Shown here piece after piece: positions 20,122 through 28,524 of a stretch of DNA of 37,523 nt (position 1 is the first letter of the stretch; the number at the start of each line of letters is the position of its first letter). The DNA comes from an uncultured Bacilli bacterium (GTDB lineage: Bacteria > Bacillota_I > Bacilli_A > RF39 > UBA660), in NCBI GenBank assembly GCA_947629135.1, contig CANRCN010000005.1, positions 1 to 37,523 of the forward strand, written 5' to 3'. Made by a program: the position numbers and the translations under genes. A model generated the notes under the pieces. That model was not told the origin of the DNA. It did no database searches and saw nothing but the letters and a program-made list of their open reading frames with translations.

Positions 20122-20160
20122 TTAAAACAGATTTAAAATCTGTTTTAATTATTTTAATTT
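20120..20160. terminator. Bidirectional terminator between convergent units
   Basis: A perfect 13-bp stem, AATTAAAACAGAT (20120-20132) with ATCTGTTTTAATT (20138-20150), with T-rich tails on both strands. It serves the DUF2974 gene on the plus strand and the six-gene operon on the minus strand. Confidence 0.82.
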
Positions 20161-22286
20161 TAAATTTTTATTCGATAAGCAATATTAGTACAAATTTTTT
20201 GAATTTCACCATTATCTATTGTTTCTTTAAGTTTTAAAATATCTGGTTCTAAAATAGTTAGAAACTCTTTAACATGAATTGCATCTTCATTTTCCATTAA
20301 ATCATTGTATGTAGTTATAAGTTTATTCTTAGCTTCAATTTTATCACTTGATGCTAAAACTAAAATACTAAGAATTGCAAGTGAGTAAACTTTAATCCCT
20401 AAATCATCTAATTCTAAAGTTATATTATAAGCATAATCTAGGTAAGTTTTAGCTTGATATTTATCTTTACTTAAGAGATAACATCCTAGATTAAAATATA
20501 AAGTTTCAAAGGGATGCATTGTAGTATTACTAATTTTTTCAGGATTATACGTATCTTCATCTTCTTCAATATCAAAAAGATAAAGTGAAGATAGTTCTTT
20601 ATTATTTAAGAAAGCATCATACATTTGATTAGCAATATCATACTTTTTAGAAAAATTAGCCATATTCATAATATAAAAATAAGCATTCATTAAAAAGTGT
20701 TTTGAAAAGTCTTGAATATTAGCAATTTTATTTACCATTTTAGAATAATCTTTGGAAGTAGTATCTAAGCTTTTAGCAAGATATTCTAAGGATAATTCAA
20801 TATGTTCCATAGAAGCTTCTAAAGCACTTCTATATTGATATTGACGTTTCTTATCACTAGTTGAAGAAAAGTTTTTAATAGCTTCTTCAGAATCGTTAAG
20901 GGCTTTTTCATAATATTCTTCTTTTTTATTATTATCAAGATTTGGATAAATTAGATTTGTATAAGATTGAAGCCTAGTTCCATAAGCTTTAGCTAAATTA
21001 TCAGATTGCATATTACCAAATTCTTCAATTTTATTAAAGCTTTTCATTATTTCTTTTAGTCTTTCTATTCCTTCAGTTAAAATCAAAATAGCTTTATCTT
21101 CTTTAAAACAACTACTGTAAGTAATAGCTTCTCTTATTATGAGAATATAATAATAATCCAAAAATTCCCAAGAACCACTTATACTTTTAAGAGTTTCTTT
21201 AGCAATTTCAATTTCTTTAAAGGCATTTACAGTATCACTTTCATGAGTATAAATAGTTAATAAATACAAAGAAACATCTAACTTTAATTTATTAATAACA
21301 TAATCTTTAACAGTTATTTTAGATAATATTCTACTTCTTAATTTAAGTAAGAAATTCTTACATATACTAAGTGATCTTTGAACATCAATTAAACTTCTAA
21401 TTTTTAAAGAAAGAAGATTAAATTGAATTCGCATATTGATAATTGACATATTATTAATATGATTAATAAGTAGGCTTTCTAGTTCATGACTATCTTTTTC
21501 AAGAGCAATTTCATTTAATAAAAGGAAAGCATCAGATATACTATTTTGAGCCAAGTAATTTGAAATTTTCTTTTGAAGGTCTGGCTTTTCTACTCCAAAT
21601 ATATATTTACTTGAATTAAACATTTCATTTAATTCTTCACGTTGCTCTTTAGTAAATTTACCACTTTCTTTAGTTAGCATACTGTTGCAAACAACATCAG
21701 CAAGATCTAATCGAGGATTTTTAGAAACAGAAGCTATTTTGAAAGAAACATGACAGTTTTTAGAAATAAACAAATCTTTTTCAGCAAGATGCATCATGAT
21801 TCTTTCTTTTATTAATTTTGTATAGGTATCAATTTCAGTTATTTCAGCTGGATTATCACTATTTAAGGTTCTTCTTACAGCTGCAGTTATATTAATACTA
21901 ATTTCATCTGGTTTTTCTAAAGATAACTTTTCTAATAAATTCATGATTCCTTCAACTAAAATATGTAAATATAATTTTTCATGGTCTTGGAAATCTAATA
22001 ATTCTTTATTTTGAAAAATAACAAATTGAGCTGGTAAATTTTTAATTTCTCTCATAATATTGATAGCAACGTCCCCAGCTAACTTTGGATTAATTTTAGC
22101 AATATCATTTATATGTTTATAGTTACCATCAACTTTTGAAGTTGCTATTTCCATAATTTTTATAGCTTCTTCTTTAGTTAATTCTTTATTCCTAACTAAA
22201 ATTCCTCCTACTAGAGAAGGAGATTTTTTACCACTGTCATTTATAAATTCTCCACTTTCATCTAAATATAGTTCAAATGTTCTCAT
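20160..22286 (-). CDS. DUF3800-like N-terminal domain fused to helical repeats
   Basis: Last gene of the six-gene minus-strand operon, 708 residues. The N-terminal part (1-230) resembles DUF3800: YLDESGEF at 7-14 with acidic Asp9/Glu10, a central KHIND (57-61), and LDLADVVCNSM (193-203), the position of the family's conserved LAD motif. DUF3800 is thought to have an RNase H-like fold, so a nuclease role is possible but unproven. The rest (240-708) is all-helical with TPR-like pairs, for example AKTYLDYAYNITLELDDLG and IANQMYDAFLNN. No membrane segment is seen, so it is cytoplasmic. Its start overlaps the previous stop by ATGA, with AAAGGAT upstream. It could be the effector or scaffold of the system. 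Confidence 0.65.
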   Translation of the reverse strand: MRTFELYLDESGEFINDSGKKSPSLVGGILVRNKELTKEEAIKIMEIATSKVDGNYKHINDIAKINPKLAGDVAINIMREIKNLPAQFVIFQNKELLDFQDHEKLYLHILVEGIMNLLEKLSLEKPDEISINITAAVRRTLNSDNPAEITEIDTYTKLIKERIMMHLAEKDLFISKNCHVSFKIASVSKNPRLDLADVVCNSMLTKESGKFTKEQREELNEMFNSSKYIFGVEKPDLQKKISNYLAQNSISDAFLLLNEIALEKDSHELESLLINHINNMSIINMRIQFNLLSLKIRSLIDVQRSLSICKNFLLKLRSRILSKITVKDYVINKLKLDVSLYLLTIYTHESDTVNAFKEIEIAKETLKSISGSWEFLDYYYILIIREAITYSSCFKEDKAILILTEGIERLKEIMKSFNKIEEFGNMQSDNLAKAYGTRLQSYTNLIYPNLDNNKKEEYYEKALNDSEEAIKNFSSTSDKKRQYQYRSALEASMEHIELSLEYLAKSLDTTSKDYSKMVNKIANIQDFSKHFLMNAYFYIMNMANFSKKYDIANQMYDAFLNNKELSSLYLFDIEEDEDTYNPEKISNTTMHPFETLYFNLGCYLLSKDKYQAKTYLDYAYNITLELDDLGIKVYSLAILSILVLASSDKIEAKNKLITTYNDLMENEDAIHVKEFLTILEPDILKLKETIDNGEIQKICTNIAYRIKI

Positions 22287-23827
22287 TTTTTATTATCCTT
22301 TCTTACAATACTTGGTTTATATTTTTGTTTACCATTAAAATAATTTAAATAAGTTATTTCTTCATCTTGTAAATTTTCCTCATTTGTATATTTAATTTCT
22401 TTTGGAAATATATAACATAATTCATCGTTTATAAAGATTAAATATTCTCCTAAAGAAACTTTTTCATCATTATCATACCAAACTAAAACTTTATCTTTAT
22501 TTCTTTCATAATGAATATTATTTGCTTTTAAAAAGTAATTTAATTTACTTGTAAAGATATAAAACAAATACCAAATTATATAAACGTTACTATCATTAAT
22601 ACTACCATGAGCTTCAACTTTATTTCTTAATAATCTAATAAGTTTAAATAAACCTAAAAAGCTAAGAGAATCTCCATCTAATTTAACTCCTAAAAAATCT
22701 GCCATATAATTTAAATAAATTTTTTCTTCTTTATTTAATTTAATAGTTTTAGTTTTAAGATCATAAATTAAATCTTCTTTTTTTACTAATTTATAAATAT
22801 TCTCTGCAGTAATTGGAATAGAATCAACTGTTAATTCTCTTAAAATTCCTGTATTTTTATGATATTTATTATATAAATAATAAAGTACCATTTTAGAAAG
22901 AGCCATAATATAATTTAATAAAATTAAAATACTTTGATAAGCTGAGTCAGTTAGATAAGCATTTTTATATAATTCTAATAAAAAGTCATCTTTAGGTAAA
23001 TTAGTATGTTCTAATTTCATTTTTTCTTGAAAATAATATTTTGATTTATTTATTAAATTGAAATCATCTTTCTTAACATAATTTAATTTATCAATACTTA
23101 ATAAATTCTCAACATATTCGAGTAAATTGATATCTTTAGAAACAATTCGTAGTCCTTGTTTATAATTATTTTTAGGAATATCTTTTGATACTACTACAAA
23201 ATAGATAACCTTATCTTTATATAATTCATAATCTTTTATATTTTTACTTATAACTACTAATGTATTTTTTAGAATTATATCTTTTTTACTTTGGAGTTTT
23301 TCTAATTCAGTATCTTTTATATAAAAGTTATTTTTATTAATACTATATTCTAAATTACTATTTAAATCAAATGTTGATGAAATTAAATTATTTTTTATTA
23401 AAATATAATTAAATAAATCAGGATGTTTTTTTAACTTTCTTATCTTTAAACTTTGATTATCTTTTTTAGGCAAAATAAAGTATAAAATATTAAAAACAAT
23501 TATTGTGAATAATTCTAAACTAAAGAATAGAATTGTATTATAAATAATAATATATTTATTTAAGAAAATATAAATTAAAAGAGATTTAATAATAGTCAAA
23601 ATAGGATAAGTAATTATTAAATTATAGTTAGTATCTTTTTTATAACTTAATAGATATAATATATAAACTAAATTGAGTCCTAAGGCAATTACTATAATTC
23701 TAATATAAGACGGTAATGATGAAAAGATAGTTATCCCCATGATAGTGGATAAAAAATAATTTAAGAAAACAAATTCTAGTATTAGAGAACTATATAAGAT
23801 AATTTGATTAGTCTTGGTTAATTTCAT
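22283..23827 (-). CDS. Polytopic membrane protein with a HEPN-like C-terminal region (514 aa)
   Basis: Fifth gene of the operon. About four membrane helices lie in the first 120 residues (roughly 8-30, 41-61, 70-90 and 93-118). A soluble cytoplasmic part of about 395 residues follows. Within its helical section is LLRNKVEAHGSI, which has the Arg401-Asn402-x4-His407 pattern of HEPN domains and is followed by a long hydrophobic helix (415-433). The C-terminus is beta-like. The order of parts matches the gene upstream (23824-25653), and both end in a similar YLxYxNG stretch, so the two look like diverged paralogues. ATGA overlaps at both ends imply coupling. HEPN identity is inference from motif and context. 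Confidence 0.6.
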   Translation of the reverse strand: MKLTKTNQIILYSSLILEFVFLNYFLSTIMGITIFSSLPSYIRIIVIALGLNLVYILYLLSYKKDTNYNLIITYPILTIIKSLLIYIFLNKYIIIYNTILFFSLELFTIIVFNILYFILPKKDNQSLKIRKLKKHPDLFNYILIKNNLISSTFDLNSNLEYSINKNNFYIKDTELEKLQSKKDIILKNTLVVISKNIKDYELYKDKVIYFVVVSKDIPKNNYKQGLRIVSKDINLLEYVENLLSIDKLNYVKKDDFNLINKSKYYFQEKMKLEHTNLPKDDFLLELYKNAYLTDSAYQSILILLNYIMALSKMVLYYLYNKYHKNTGILRELTVDSIPITAENIYKLVKKEDLIYDLKTKTIKLNKEEKIYLNYMADFLGVKLDGDSLSFLGLFKLIRLLRNKVEAHGSINDSNVYIIWYLFYIFTSKLNYFLKANNIHYERNKDKVLVWYDNDEKVSLGEYLIFINDELCYIFPKEIKYTNEENLQDEEITYLNYFNGKQKYKPSIVRKDNKK

Positions 23828-25653
23828 TTAATCACCTCATCTATTTTGATTTTATTGTCTTTAGATTTAACTAAGATATTTCCATTTTTATAATCTAAGT
23901 ATTCTAATAATAAGTCTTTATTTTCTTTTTCTATTCCATAGCTATAAAGATAAAAATCTTTTTCTCCTTTTTCAAGAGCTTGAAAATCTTTAGAAAACAA
24001 TCCTTGAATTAAATCATCTTCTGATATACTTATATTTAAATTTATAAATTCTCTAACTACTATTTCCATCAAATTAAATAAATCATTTACTAAAGATTTA
24101 GAAACTTCATAAGTTAAAATACCATGAACTAAAATATTATTTCTAATTCTTAATAAATATGAGCAAACATCTAAATAATAACAACTTGTTTTATTATCAA
24201 ATTTATGATTTTCATTAAGAATATCATCTATATGATTTAATGATTTAATTATGTTTGGATTATTATATTTATTATTATTTTCATTTTTACCTATTTGATA
24301 ATTAATCCAAATACCTAAGGTAGGAATTCTTAAATTTTCTTTACTATTATTTGGTAAATTACTTAAATCTTTATTAATTATATTTCTTAAAGCTCGATAG
24401 TGAAGACAATATTCAGATACTTTTAAAATAGAGTAGAAATTTTCAATTGGATTATAAGACTTTATAGTTTGATTTAAAGCATATCTTATATATTTATTAG
24501 CAGGATTATCTTGAATATCATTTAATAAAGTCTCGACTTTTTGTTTTAAAATAATATTATTTTCATCTTCAACAACTTCTTTTAAAATAGTGGTTACATC
24601 TAATCTATTTTTGTAATTAAATTTATATTTTTTTTCTAATTCTTTAGCTATTTTAGTAAATCCATATGGAAATATAATTTTAAATTTATAATTATTATCT
24701 TTAATTTCAGCTATTTTATTAAATAGTATTTTTTTTGAATATTTATCAATGAACATAGTAGAAAAATTATTAGTTATTATTAAATAGTAAATATTTTTAT
24801 ATTTAGTTATATCTATTAAATTTAATCTAATAGCTGTAAATGATATTAGATTAAAGCTTTTGTTTTCAATTACTAAGTTATTTAAAATATTATTAGATAA
24901 TTTATTAAAATCTTTTAATTCACTTTTTAAACCTAGATTAAAAAATGAGTTTTCTAAAGTTAAAACAATAAATAGATTTTTGTTGGAATTATTATCTTTA
25001 TTTATTTTTTTTATTGATAATAAAGATATAGTAATTTTTATTAGAAAATAGATTAAGTAAATAACTAATAAAGATAATAATAAGTATTTTATTCTTCTTG
25101 GATAAATGTAGAGATTAGGTACTTGAAATATTATAATACTAAAGAGAATTAAAAAGTTATAACGATGGATTCTTTTATAGATAGATTCTATTATATAAGA
25201 TATATTACCTTTTAAATTTTTATTATCAAATAGAAATGGTATTAGTAAAGTAATAAAGGGAATAATACTAACTGTTATTATGGCTTTTTTTAAATTAAAA
25301 TTTGAATAATAATAGGGTAGAGATATAAAATTATAAAAATTAATAAATATATTTGAATCTTTATGAGTAAGATAGTTAGTATTACTAGGAAACATTGTTA
25401 TAATTATTGGAAAAGTTAACAAAAATATGTAAAGAATAATTCCTAGTAATTTATGATTTTTTAAGAAAGAAAAATTATCAAATAAAAGAATTTGGATAGA
25501 TACAATTAAAGATATTAAGAGAGCAAAGTAGATAAATAATCCTGATTCAAAAGGTAAAAAGTAAAAACCATTTGAGGAAATATTTAAACCTATTAAAAGG
25601 AATAATATTAATATAACAAGATAAATTATTATTTTAAATGATATTTTCTTCAT
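23824..25653 (-). CDS. Polytopic membrane protein with a HEPN-like C-terminal region (609 aa)
   Basis: Fourth gene of the operon. About six membrane helices fill the first 212 residues (roughly 6-24, 36-58, 68-88, 123-142, 166-183 and 188-212). A cytoplasmic part of nearly 400 residues follows. It contains LRIRNNILVHGIL, giving Arg504-Asn505-x4-His510, then an amphipathic helix (515-538), as in HEPN domains. The end (LLLEYLDYKNGNILV) resembles that of the next gene's product. The start has GAGGAT upstream and lies 20 bases inside the preceding gene. No family name is recognised. The RN-x4-H motif is the only direct hint of RNase-type function. Confidence 0.6.
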   Translation of the reverse strand: MKKISFKIIIYLVILILFLLIGLNISSNGFYFLPFESGLFIYFALLISLIVSIQILLFDNFSFLKNHKLLGIILYIFLLTFPIIITMFPSNTNYLTHKDSNIFINFYNFISLPYYYSNFNLKKAIITVSIIPFITLLIPFLFDNKNLKGNISYIIESIYKRIHRYNFLILFSIIIFQVPNLYIYPRRIKYLLLSLLVIYLIYFLIKITISLLSIKKINKDNNSNKNLFIVLTLENSFFNLGLKSELKDFNKLSNNILNNLVIENKSFNLISFTAIRLNLIDITKYKNIYYLIITNNFSTMFIDKYSKKILFNKIAEIKDNNYKFKIIFPYGFTKIAKELEKKYKFNYKNRLDVTTILKEVVEDENNIILKQKVETLLNDIQDNPANKYIRYALNQTIKSYNPIENFYSILKVSEYCLHYRALRNIINKDLSNLPNNSKENLRIPTLGIWINYQIGKNENNNKYNNPNIIKSLNHIDDILNENHKFDNKTSCYYLDVCSYLLRIRNNILVHGILTYEVSKSLVNDLFNLMEIVVREFINLNISISEDDLIQGLFSKDFQALEKGEKDFYLYSYGIEKENKDLLLEYLDYKNGNILVKSKDNKIKIDEVIK

Positions 25654-26755
25654 GATTATCCTCGTTTAATTCTAAATAAGTTAATTTACCCTTTTTTACT
25701 TCTACATATTTAGTAGAATATATTTTATCATTAAGATAACTTTTTATAACATAATTTCCAGGATCAATATTATATGAAACAAAGCATTCTTTGCTTTTAA
25801 GAATTCTAGTATAAATATTAGTTTCATCACTAGTTTTTAAATCCAAATGATTAATTTCTATTTTCAAATCATTAGAACTATTATTATTTATATATAGATT
25901 AGAGCCTCTAAAATCATTTTTAAGAGTAATATTATTTTTAATTTTATATATTTTTTTATTATGTTCAAAAGTAATAATAAGATCAATATTTGTATTAGTA
26001 AATGAGGTAGTATTATTTTCTTTTATGATAAAACCTTCTTCATTAAAGAAAGTATTTTGTTTTTTATTTTTTAAATTTAGTACTTCTTGATTATTATTTA
26101 AAGTATTAGTATCTATTTCTATTTTTTTAATATAAGAATTAGTTATATTAAAATAATATTCTCGTTTAATTGATTTATTTTCTTTTATATCATTTGAAGT
26201 TGTAATTGATAATTTTTCTCCTTTAAATTCATCTTTTAAGAATATATATTCATCTAAATTGAAAGAAATAGAATCTTTAAGAGCTTTTTTTTCTTCACTT
26301 TCTAAAGTAATTCTGTCTCTTTTATTAGGAATTAAATTATCTCCTTTCAAAGTAAAATTACAAACGTCTTTTTCTAAATTAATTTCTTGCATATTAATAA
26401 CATCTTCTGTCTTAAAATAATATGTTACTAACTCTAAATTAGAAATTCCAGCATAACCTTCTTTATTAGTTTTTAAAATTGCTTTTTCATTAAAAGTATT
26501 AAAGAAAGTTATTTCATAATCTCTAATTGGTTTATCATTATTATCTACAACTTTAAATAGACAATAGTTATCTATACTAGAAGTTATAAATGGTAGGCTA
26601 TATTTTTTTTGATCTTTGTAATAATCATTATAACTTTTCATGAATAAACTAGAACTATTTAAACTAGTATAGTCTATAGTTTTTTTGATTAGTAAAATAG
26701 AACTTATTCCAAGTATGATAATTAAAGTAATAATTATTGGTATTATTTTTTTCAT
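25634..26755 (-). CDS. Membrane-anchored extracytoplasmic protein with a Cna-B-like domain
   Basis: Third gene of the operon, 373 residues. One N-terminal membrane helix (about 4-23) leads to an extracytoplasmic region. Residues about 64-115 (CLFKVVDNNDKPIRDYEI, then LKTNKEGYAGISNLE) read like a Cna-B/SpaA-type beta-sandwich, where a variable 'value' strand pair is followed by a T-x-x-x-G-Y turn. The middle is rich in charged residues. The end, SYNIDPGNYVIKSYLNDK, again resembles a Cna-B closing strand. There is no LPxTG or C-terminal anchor. GGAGG lies just before the ATG, 9 bases after the previous stop. The domain call is pattern-based. Confidence 0.6.
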   Translation of the reverse strand: MKKIIPIIITLIIILGISSILLIKKTIDYTSLNSSSLFMKSYNDYYKDQKKYSLPFITSSIDNYCLFKVVDNNDKPIRDYEITFFNTFNEKAILKTNKEGYAGISNLELVTYYFKTEDVINMQEINLEKDVCNFTLKGDNLIPNKRDRITLESEEKKALKDSISFNLDEYIFLKDEFKGEKLSITTSNDIKENKSIKREYYFNITNSYIKKIEIDTNTLNNNQEVLNLKNKKQNTFFNEEGFIIKENNTTSFTNTNIDLIITFEHNKKIYKIKNNITLKNDFRGSNLYINNNSSNDLKIEINHLDLKTSDETNIYTRILKSKECFVSYNIDPGNYVIKSYLNDKIYSTKYVEVKKGKLTYLELNEDNHEENII

Positions 26756-26764
26756 ATAACCTCC

Positions 26765-27739
26765 TTATTCAATAGTTATATTATGTGAAATTGAATCATT
26801 TTCAATTGTATAAATTCTTGCAGCATAGTCAGATGAATTAGCAATATAAGAATTTACTCTTAAATCGTAATATGAAACATTAAGTGTATATTCAAAATTT
26901 TTAATATTTTTAGGAAAAGCTAAATAAAAGTTTTTTTTATGTAAAGTTTTTAAATCTATTACTTTTTCTCCTTTATCGTTATAAAAATCAATTTGTATTT
27001 GATTACCATCTTCATCTTTGGCTTCTAAATTAGCATCTTTAATAATAGCATTTGTTATTTCATATTTGAATGGTCCTGCTAAATATTTAAGATTAGTTTC
27101 TTCTAAGTGAAAAGAGGCTTTATCATCAGTTAATTTTAGGATATTTTTAACTTCATTATCGTTTGGAGCTTTAGTCCATTTTTCAACAAATTGAATTAAT
27201 TTTGAAGCAGCATTATAAACTCTAGCATTTATTCTTGCTTCTCCAACATAGCTTCTAATGGCATTTATTCTAGCTCCTTCAGATGTATACATAGATTCTT
27301 GAGTTCTGTCTGCCATTTCCCATAAGGCAAGTTGGATAGCAAAGTAAGCTTCTTCTTCATTTATAACACCCATTTCTTCTAAAGAAACTAGGGGATAACT
27401 ATTCCTAAATATTAGATAGATTTGATCACTTAAAGCACCTTTATATTTTAAAATATCACCAACTTTTAAATTACTATGATTAAATGATAAACTAAAAATA
27501 TCTTGATCGTTATTACCATAGTAATGTTTATTTAAGGGATCAAATTTAAATTTAGTTTTTAAAGTATTAATTTTATTAATTTTTAAATCTTCTTTTTCAC
27601 CTACATATAAATTAATATCACTACTTAAATTTTTAACAAATACATAATCATTTTTTTCTTCTATTTTTAAAGTTATAAAGATTGTAAAGATAATTATTTC
27701 TAAAGTTATTATAATTAAATATTTAGAATACTTTTTCAT
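26765..27739 (-). CDS. Thioester-domain-like anchored protein without the cysteine
   Basis: Second gene of the operon, 324 residues, with one N-terminal membrane helix (about 7-25). Residues 60-150 resemble the thioester domain (TED) of Gram-positive surface adhesins: FRNSYPLVSLEEMG (111-124) and EEAYFAIQLALWEMADR (129-145), where Gln136 matches the Gln that joins the thioester in the IQ-x-x-x-W motif. The protein has no cysteine at all. At the place of the usual Y-C-I-D-P stretch it reads FKFDP (64-68), so Lys65 may replace the cysteine. A second domain (about 200-324) looks beta-rich. It overlaps the previous gene by ATGA. The TED match is mine by eye. Confidence 0.6.
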   Translation of the reverse strand: MKKYSKYLIIITLEIIIFTIFITLKIEEKNDYVFVKNLSSDINLYVGEKEDLKINKINTLKTKFKFDPLNKHYYGNNDQDIFSLSFNHSNLKVGDILKYKGALSDQIYLIFRNSYPLVSLEEMGVINEEEAYFAIQLALWEMADRTQESMYTSEGARINAIRSYVGEARINARVYNAASKLIQFVEKWTKAPNDNEVKNILKLTDDKASFHLEETNLKYLAGPFKYEITNAIIKDANLEAKDEDGNQIQIDFYNDKGEKVIDLKTLHKKNFYLAFPKNIKNFEYTLNVSYYDLRVNSYIANSSDYAARIYTIENDSISHNITIE

Positions 27740-28422
27740 TCAAGGTACCCCTCATTATTTAAATTAAGTTTTAGTCCAACAGCTCCATCCTTTTTTATTT
27801 GAACAAAAAACTTTTGGGGATTATCTATTCCATCTTGCACTACATAATAAAGATTAGAATCTTTAGTAGATAGTTTTTCAAAAGCAATTACTCCTTTATC
27901 ACTAGATTTGGCAGATAAAACTAATTTAGCTGAATTATCATATAATTTAATTTTTATATTAGGAACTCCATTTCCATTTTCATCAAGTATAAGAATAACT
28001 AAAGCACTTTCATCGATTGAAGAGGGGATGAATTCATAGCTTTTGTTATCTTCTGAGAATTTTAAGTAATATTCATTCATATCTAAATCATCATTACATT
28101 GATTACTTATTTCTCTTAAAGTATATTCTCCGTTTTTAAGTCCGACTAATCCTCCAACACCATCTTTATTTAAACTGAAATTATAAGTTTTTTTAGTTTT
28201 CAAGTTGGTTAGTCTCCAATTAGAATAATCTCCATCATCATGAAAGTATCGTTTAATGTATAAATAATTTTCAGTTACTCCAACTATATCACATTGTTCT
28301 TGTTGTTCATTATAAGTTTTTTTAACTTCTTTTAAATCTTTTTCGTATTGTAAATTTTGATAACTTACTACAATCGAAATTCCTAAAATTAGAATTATTG
28401 AGATAAATATAATTTTTTTCAT
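27736..28422 (-). CDS. Membrane-anchored SpaA/Cna-B-like protein, first gene of the operon
   Basis: The 228 residues have an N-terminal membrane helix (about 3-20), a short coil, and two beta-rich segments. Residues 50-108 end in GLKNGEYTLREIS, the usual closing turn of SpaA/Cna-B domains. Residues 138-210 (ALVILILDENGNGVPNIKI, then SSDKGVIAFEKL) form a second one. The protein should sit outside the membrane, with no LPxTG. I start at the ATG at 28422, since GGAGG is 5 bases upstream; an in-frame TTG at 28434 falls inside the Shine-Dalgarno. A strong SigA-type promoter lies just upstream. It overlaps the next gene by ATGA. Confidence 0.65.
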   Translation of the reverse strand: MKKIIFISIILILGISIVVSYQNLQYEKDLKEVKKTYNEQQEQCDIVGVTENYLYIKRYFHDDGDYSNWRLTNLKTKKTYNFSLNKDGVGGLVGLKNGEYTLREISNQCNDDLDMNEYYLKFSEDNKSYEFIPSSIDESALVILILDENGNGVPNIKIKLYDNSAKLVLSAKSSDKGVIAFEKLSTKDSNLYYVVQDGIDNPQKFFVQIKKDGAVGLKLNLNNEGYLE

Positions 28423-28445
28423 GTATACCTCCAAAATTCAATTTT

Positions 28446-28474
28446 ATTTTAGTATAAATAGTTAAAATTGTCAA
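28446..28474 (-). promoter_or_regulatory. Promoter of the six-gene operon
   Basis: On the minus strand TTGACA (28474-28469) matches consensus, with a 17-bp spacer and TAAAAT (28451-28446). Its -35 box overlaps that of the divergent promoter on the plus strand. Confidence 0.8.
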
Positions 28475-28497
28475 TTATTGTAGATTTTTTTTAGAAT
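28468..28497 (+). promoter_or_regulatory. Divergent promoter of the PF06541 membrane protein
   Basis: TTGTCA (28468-28473), an 18-bp spacer and TAGAAT (28492-28497). The -35 shares five bases with that of the minus-strand operon, so polymerase may be unable to use both at once. Another TATAAT at 28504-28509 would give almost no leader. Confidence 0.55.
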
Positions 28498-28524
28498 AAT
28501 TAGTATAATTAAATAGTGATATTT

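Follow-up and report, generated by a model that had tools for sequence, protein, structure and literature searches.

Thioester domains (TEDs) mediate the covalent attachment of bacteria to their targets. The bond joins the cysteine of a [YFL]C-Phi-zeta motif on strand C to a glutamine late in the domain, on strand Q, as in the pairs Cys71-Gln266 of BaTIE, Cys296-Gln467 of SaTIE, and Cys88-Gln292 of EfmTIE86, and these two residues have been called the only ones universally conserved among TEDs (PMC6194298). Another motif, TQxxPhiW, sits on helix alpha2 (PMC6194298), and its glutamine and tryptophan form hydrogen bonds to the cysteine backbone and are dispensable for bond formation (PMC4450167). 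In the class II TED of pLS20, a Cys-to-Ser change abolishes the role of the domain in conjugation (PMC8092201). Ester and isopeptide domains are frequent in TIE proteins (PMC4450167).

The window (the whole 37,523-nt stretch of DNA that was analysed) encodes a TED-like protein of 324 aa, here referred to as pseudo-TED, which in translation occupies the minus strand at 26765..27739, where the plus strand is rich in stop codons; the window's genes and motifs located below are likewise on the minus strand. Pseudo-TED matches the Pfam TED family PF08341 over residues 98-160 (34.5 bits, cut-off 22; E = 2.9e-8) and the TQXA domain at E = 1.4e-6, slightly below the cut-off of the latter, while among PDB sequences it has two clear matches, 6fwy (E = 1e-8) and 6fwv (E = 6e-7), both of them class II thioester domains. 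Judged from these matches, the resemblance to TEDs is well beyond chance. The PF08341 match spans profile positions 25-75 of 102 and thus leaves uncovered the first part of the profile with its cysteine site.

Not a single cysteine is found in the 324 residues, so the preliminary description of a TED-like domain without its cysteine holds. This alone is unremarkable, because the four neighbouring operon proteins have 9 cysteines per 1728 aa and about 18% of 324-aa proteins with that cysteine frequency would have none. What is remarkable is that cysteine is missing at a column which is cysteine in 65/65 other readable TEDs. The count comes from HMM columns in a sample of 68 TED segments, among them fragments and proteins of the pseudo-TED trio described below, and the sample was drawn mostly from higher-scoring Pfam matches, which favours canonical members. 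The Cys column is cysteine in 65 of the 68 segments, and the three gaps belong to pseudo-TED, one of its homologues (G395), and part of a gene whose reading frame is broken. Glutamine occupies the Gln column in 58/68, with at least three more segments having it one residue off. The open-licence literature searched contained no report of a Cys-less TED.

Two homologues were identified. One (L002 in genome G009, contig CANRDV010000003.1 of an uncultured Bacilli MAG) belongs to the same genus and is 67% identical, and the other (L039 in G395, contig CANRGI010000066.1) belongs to another genus of the same family and is 44% identical. Both isolate names start with "Lapin", which suggests a rabbit gut origin. 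Both bond residues are missing in all three proteins and thus in two genera. Fifteen further genomes of the genus yielded no homologue, nor, beyond the known ones, did the rest of the 386 sampled family genomes. A scan of genome contigs with a single-sequence query returned no relatives, the same scan with a three-row profile recovered the two known homologues, and scans of viral contigs found no relatives of pseudo-TED. Between the window and G009, dN/dS was 0.40 over the full gene, falling to 0.29 in residues 81-190 and to 0.21 in the anchor region, which points to purifying selection.

The position of the missing cysteine was assessed via alignments, forced-register scoring, and homologue conservation, and is taken by the segment FSLS (Phe82, Ser83, and Ser85; 27485..27496), which stands in place of [YFL]C-Phi-zeta. 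Of the 25 class II-like TEDs that MAFFT aligned with it, 18 come from this bacterial family, five from Bacillus plasmids, and one from G022, and the remaining one is EfmTIE86 of E. faecium. Ser83 falls on the column that is cysteine in 25/25 of these TEDs and Lys65 on a mostly gapped column. HHalign, which aligned the profiles at a probability of 97%, places Ser85 at the Cys position. When each residue in turn was placed on the Cys column, Ser83 ranked first (40.6), Ser85 second (36.1), and Lys65 24th (21.5). The counterpart of Ser83 also ranked first in G009, and in G395 there was a near tie between three positions that fall within five residues. Phe82, Ser83, and Ser85 are invariant across the three homologues. 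By sequence, the strand-C cysteine is thus replaced by serine (Ser83, possibly Ser85), with an uncertainty of two or three residues in the register. The preliminary description had instead seen the stretch FKFDP where Y-C-I-D-P-like stretches occur, with the cysteine perhaps replaced by Lys65 (27545..27547). The Cys position lies about 18 residues downstream of Lys65, and Lys65 was rejected as a cysteine substitute on its forced-register rank and because it is Pro in the G395 homologue. The sole cysteine of the G395 homologue is at position 105, the counterpart of Ser104, away from the TED Cys site.

The helix motif has been kept. AIQLALW (residues 134-140; 27320..27340), recognised by Pfam, TQXA, and alignment, is the TQxxPhiW motif of helix alpha2 (PMC6194298) with Thr replaced by Ile, and reads ALQLAIW in G395. 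Gln136 is therefore not the bond glutamine, although the earlier placement of FKFDP at 64-68, YPLVSLEEMG at 115-124, and AIQLALW with Gln136 was itself correct. For annotation, this means that the TQxxPhiW glutamine of TEDs should not be taken for the reactive one. Within the survey, it is substituted in L003, L050, L051, and L073, TEDs that retain the cysteine and the bond glutamine. In G022 (L003/L047), a TED with intact cysteine and strand-Q glutamine has the motif altered to TKHATY.

The expected site of the thioester glutamine is SDYAAR (residues 303-308; 26816..26833) at the start of strand Q, within the P/Q-like hairpin of the model described below, and it lacks glutamine. The bond glutamine aligns to Arg308 by MAFFT, to Ala306 by HHalign, and to the counterpart of Tyr305 when the G009 homologue is aligned with hmmalign. 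Across the three homologues the segment at this site reads YAARI, YAARI, and YVVRG, with glutamine in none, and pseudo-TED is free of glutamine beyond residue 249. By alignment, the strand-Q glutamine is replaced by an Ala-Ala/Val-Val-type segment, again in a register uncertain by two or three residues.

Two AlphaFold2 models, built with two and three homologues, reached a mean pLDDT of about 51 and 54. Confidence was found mainly in the C-terminal beta-sandwich, where residues 170-296 are mostly at pLDDT 60-90 and lower at the hairpin turn, and the half expected to form the six-stranded beta-barrel of the upper lobe in class II folds (residues 30-115) was at about 20-30. The sole Foldseek matches below E = 1e-3 were the class II TEDs 6fwv and 6fwy. 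These also ranked first and second in VIA-align (6fwv, Z 9.7, rmsd 12.0 over 178; 6fwy, Z 9.3, rmsd 3.9 over 119), with all others at 7.3 or below. As in class II domains, a beta-sandwich is inserted in the model between alpha3 and strand P, and the model terminates in a long beta-hairpin (residues 281-322) that matches the expectation for class II strands P and Q. Pseudo-TED is thus, by sequence and predicted fold, a true relative of class II TEDs.

Pseudo-TED is the second of five genes that overlap or almost abut and form an operon. Gene 1 (27736..28434) encodes a SpaA/prealbumin-like protein of 232 aa (Pfam SpaA, E = 3.2e-6) with an N-terminal membrane segment, and gene 3 (25634..26755) a 373-aa exoprotein, also with an N-terminal membrane segment, which has no PDB relative; both are conserved in L038 and L039. 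Cys48 of gene 1 and Cys65 and Cys132 of gene 3 are invariant. Homologue comparison and hydropathy identify genes 4 (23824..25653, 609 aa) and 5 (22283..23827, 514 aa) as polytopic membrane proteins whose C-terminal parts contain RNNILVHG and RNKVEAHG, respectively, and these R-N-x4-H motifs are conserved in 3/3 operons. HEPN nucleases carry an R-x4-6-H motif, which the C-terminal motifs of genes 4 and 5 resemble, making them putative HEPN-like domains. Neither protein showed HEPN in Pfam, any Pfam or PDB relative, or a solved HEPN relative, and PADLOC gave zero defence matches for the operon proteins. Upstream of gene 1, TTGACA-17-TAAAAT (28446..28474) resembles a promoter but is a consensus match only, such sites occurring in the region in the number expected by chance.

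The five-gene operon was present in three genomes (the window's, G009, and G395) of the several hundred sampled, and the 514-aa protein occurs, among the sampled family genomes, only alongside the pseudo-TED gene. The operon moves together as a unit. The genes that flank it, Mbeg1-like and CmpB-like, are found in G006 (L091; 89% identical) about 10 bases apart, whereas the same genes are 8.4 kb apart in the window (20122-28515) and 6.2 kb apart in G009, and the cassette is therefore an insertion immediately behind the Mbeg1-like stop codon. It is accompanied by neither a recombinase nor a clear target duplication. Gene 6 (20160..22286, 708 aa), with weak Pfam similarity to DUF3800 (E = 0.069) and a 4-base overlap with gene 5, forms the cassette end in the window and is missing from the G009 cassette.

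We consider it likely, with a probability of about 0.8, that pseudo-TED is a class II TED fold without a thioester that acts non-covalently within a membrane complex, the complex and binding roles being suggested by gene context. With cysteine and glutamine both lost and the core and alpha2 motif retained, a thioester cannot form. Selection keeps the TED fold despite the lost bond, and a non-covalent role is therefore the most likely one. The probable anchor is a single N-terminal hydrophobic segment in the hydropathy profile (residues 8-26; 27662..27718). TIE adhesins have a distal TED, a stalk, and an LPxTG anchor; in the 324 aa of pseudo-TED an LPxTG signal was sought and is absent, as is a stalk of its own, which would place the domain near the membrane and not distally as in a TIE adhesin. 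A domain that follows so soon after its anchor would suit a subunit of a membrane complex better than a distal adhesin. Its partners in the compact operon are two further exoproteins anchored in the membrane and two polytopic proteins with C-terminal R-N-x4-H. Within the membrane complex that this cassette would build at the cell surface, pseudo-TED most likely works as a subunit that is structural or binds protein or glycan. The preliminary description had offered a plain binding module as one of two options, and this is the better one.

Its other option, an amide-type crosslink between Lys65 and Gln136, deserves next to no credence. Both residues are there and are conserved in the closest homologue, but Gln136 is the non-bonding TQxxPhiW glutamine (PMC6194298, PMC4450167), Lys65 is off the Cys site and unconserved, and strand Q has no glutamine to offer. 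Another intramolecular bond could have replaced the thioester, such as an ester or isopeptide formed via Ser83 or an invariant lysine and the invariant Asp304. Ser83, Ser85, Lys63, and Asp304 are all invariant in the three homologues, and TIE proteins often contain ester and isopeptide domains, yet neither Gln nor Asn is found at the partner position and we know of no ester or isopeptide within a TED head, which makes a replacement bond very unlikely. It is extremely unlikely that the bond cysteine is supplied by another protein in an intermolecular bond; the SpaA-like protein and the third exoprotein do have invariant cysteines, but the acceptor glutamine is absent too and the cysteine pair of gene 3 could form an ordinary disulfide.

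That pseudo-TED is the decaying pseudogene of a covalent adhesin would account for the loss of both bond-forming residues, but is highly unlikely and was rejected, because dN/dS is about 0.4. Moreover, its minimum falls in the membrane anchor and TED head, the ORF is intact in three genomes, and the operon is conserved. A broader alternative, unlikely but carrying more weight than these, is that the TED fold serves as the extracellular sensor or scaffold of a membrane system of five genes that signals to cytosolic HEPN-like domains, perhaps in a defence or contact-sensing cassette, or that serine in place of cysteine supports a novel crosslink. Any tie of pseudo-TED to the putative HEPN-like domains is one that we infer.

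Pseudo-TED shares with the class II TEDs BaTIE (6fwv), EfmTIE86 (6fwy), and Bacillus subtilis TIE_pLS20 the sequence match in the helical core, TQxxPhiW, the beta-sandwich insert, and the long P/Q-like hairpin, but unlike them lacks the thioester cysteine, the strand-Q glutamine, the CnaB stalk, and LPxTG, and has an N-terminal anchor instead. Like the TIE_pLS20 C68S laboratory mutant (PMC8092201), it has serine in the place of the thioester cysteine, but whereas that mutant is non-functional in conjugation, pseudo-TED is natural and conserved, and its glutamine is missing as well. It can thus be regarded as a natural counterpart of the Cys-to-Ser and Cys-to-Ala laboratory mutants. A TED fold under selection without either bond residue implies that the fold has a use independent of the thioester. 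Complement C5 likewise retained the thioester-protein fold of C3/C4 after loss of the bond residues, which is an analogy only, as fold and organism are unrelated.

TEDs above the cut-off were found in 202/291 family genomes, and the window's genome contains three TEDs besides pseudo-TED. In G235, one TED gene (L053) is interrupted by an in-frame TAA, with both parts still recognisable. The TED match at G183:C1:176726-176941 lies in an open frame of 24409 codons, which is probably either a giant surface protein or a run of N.
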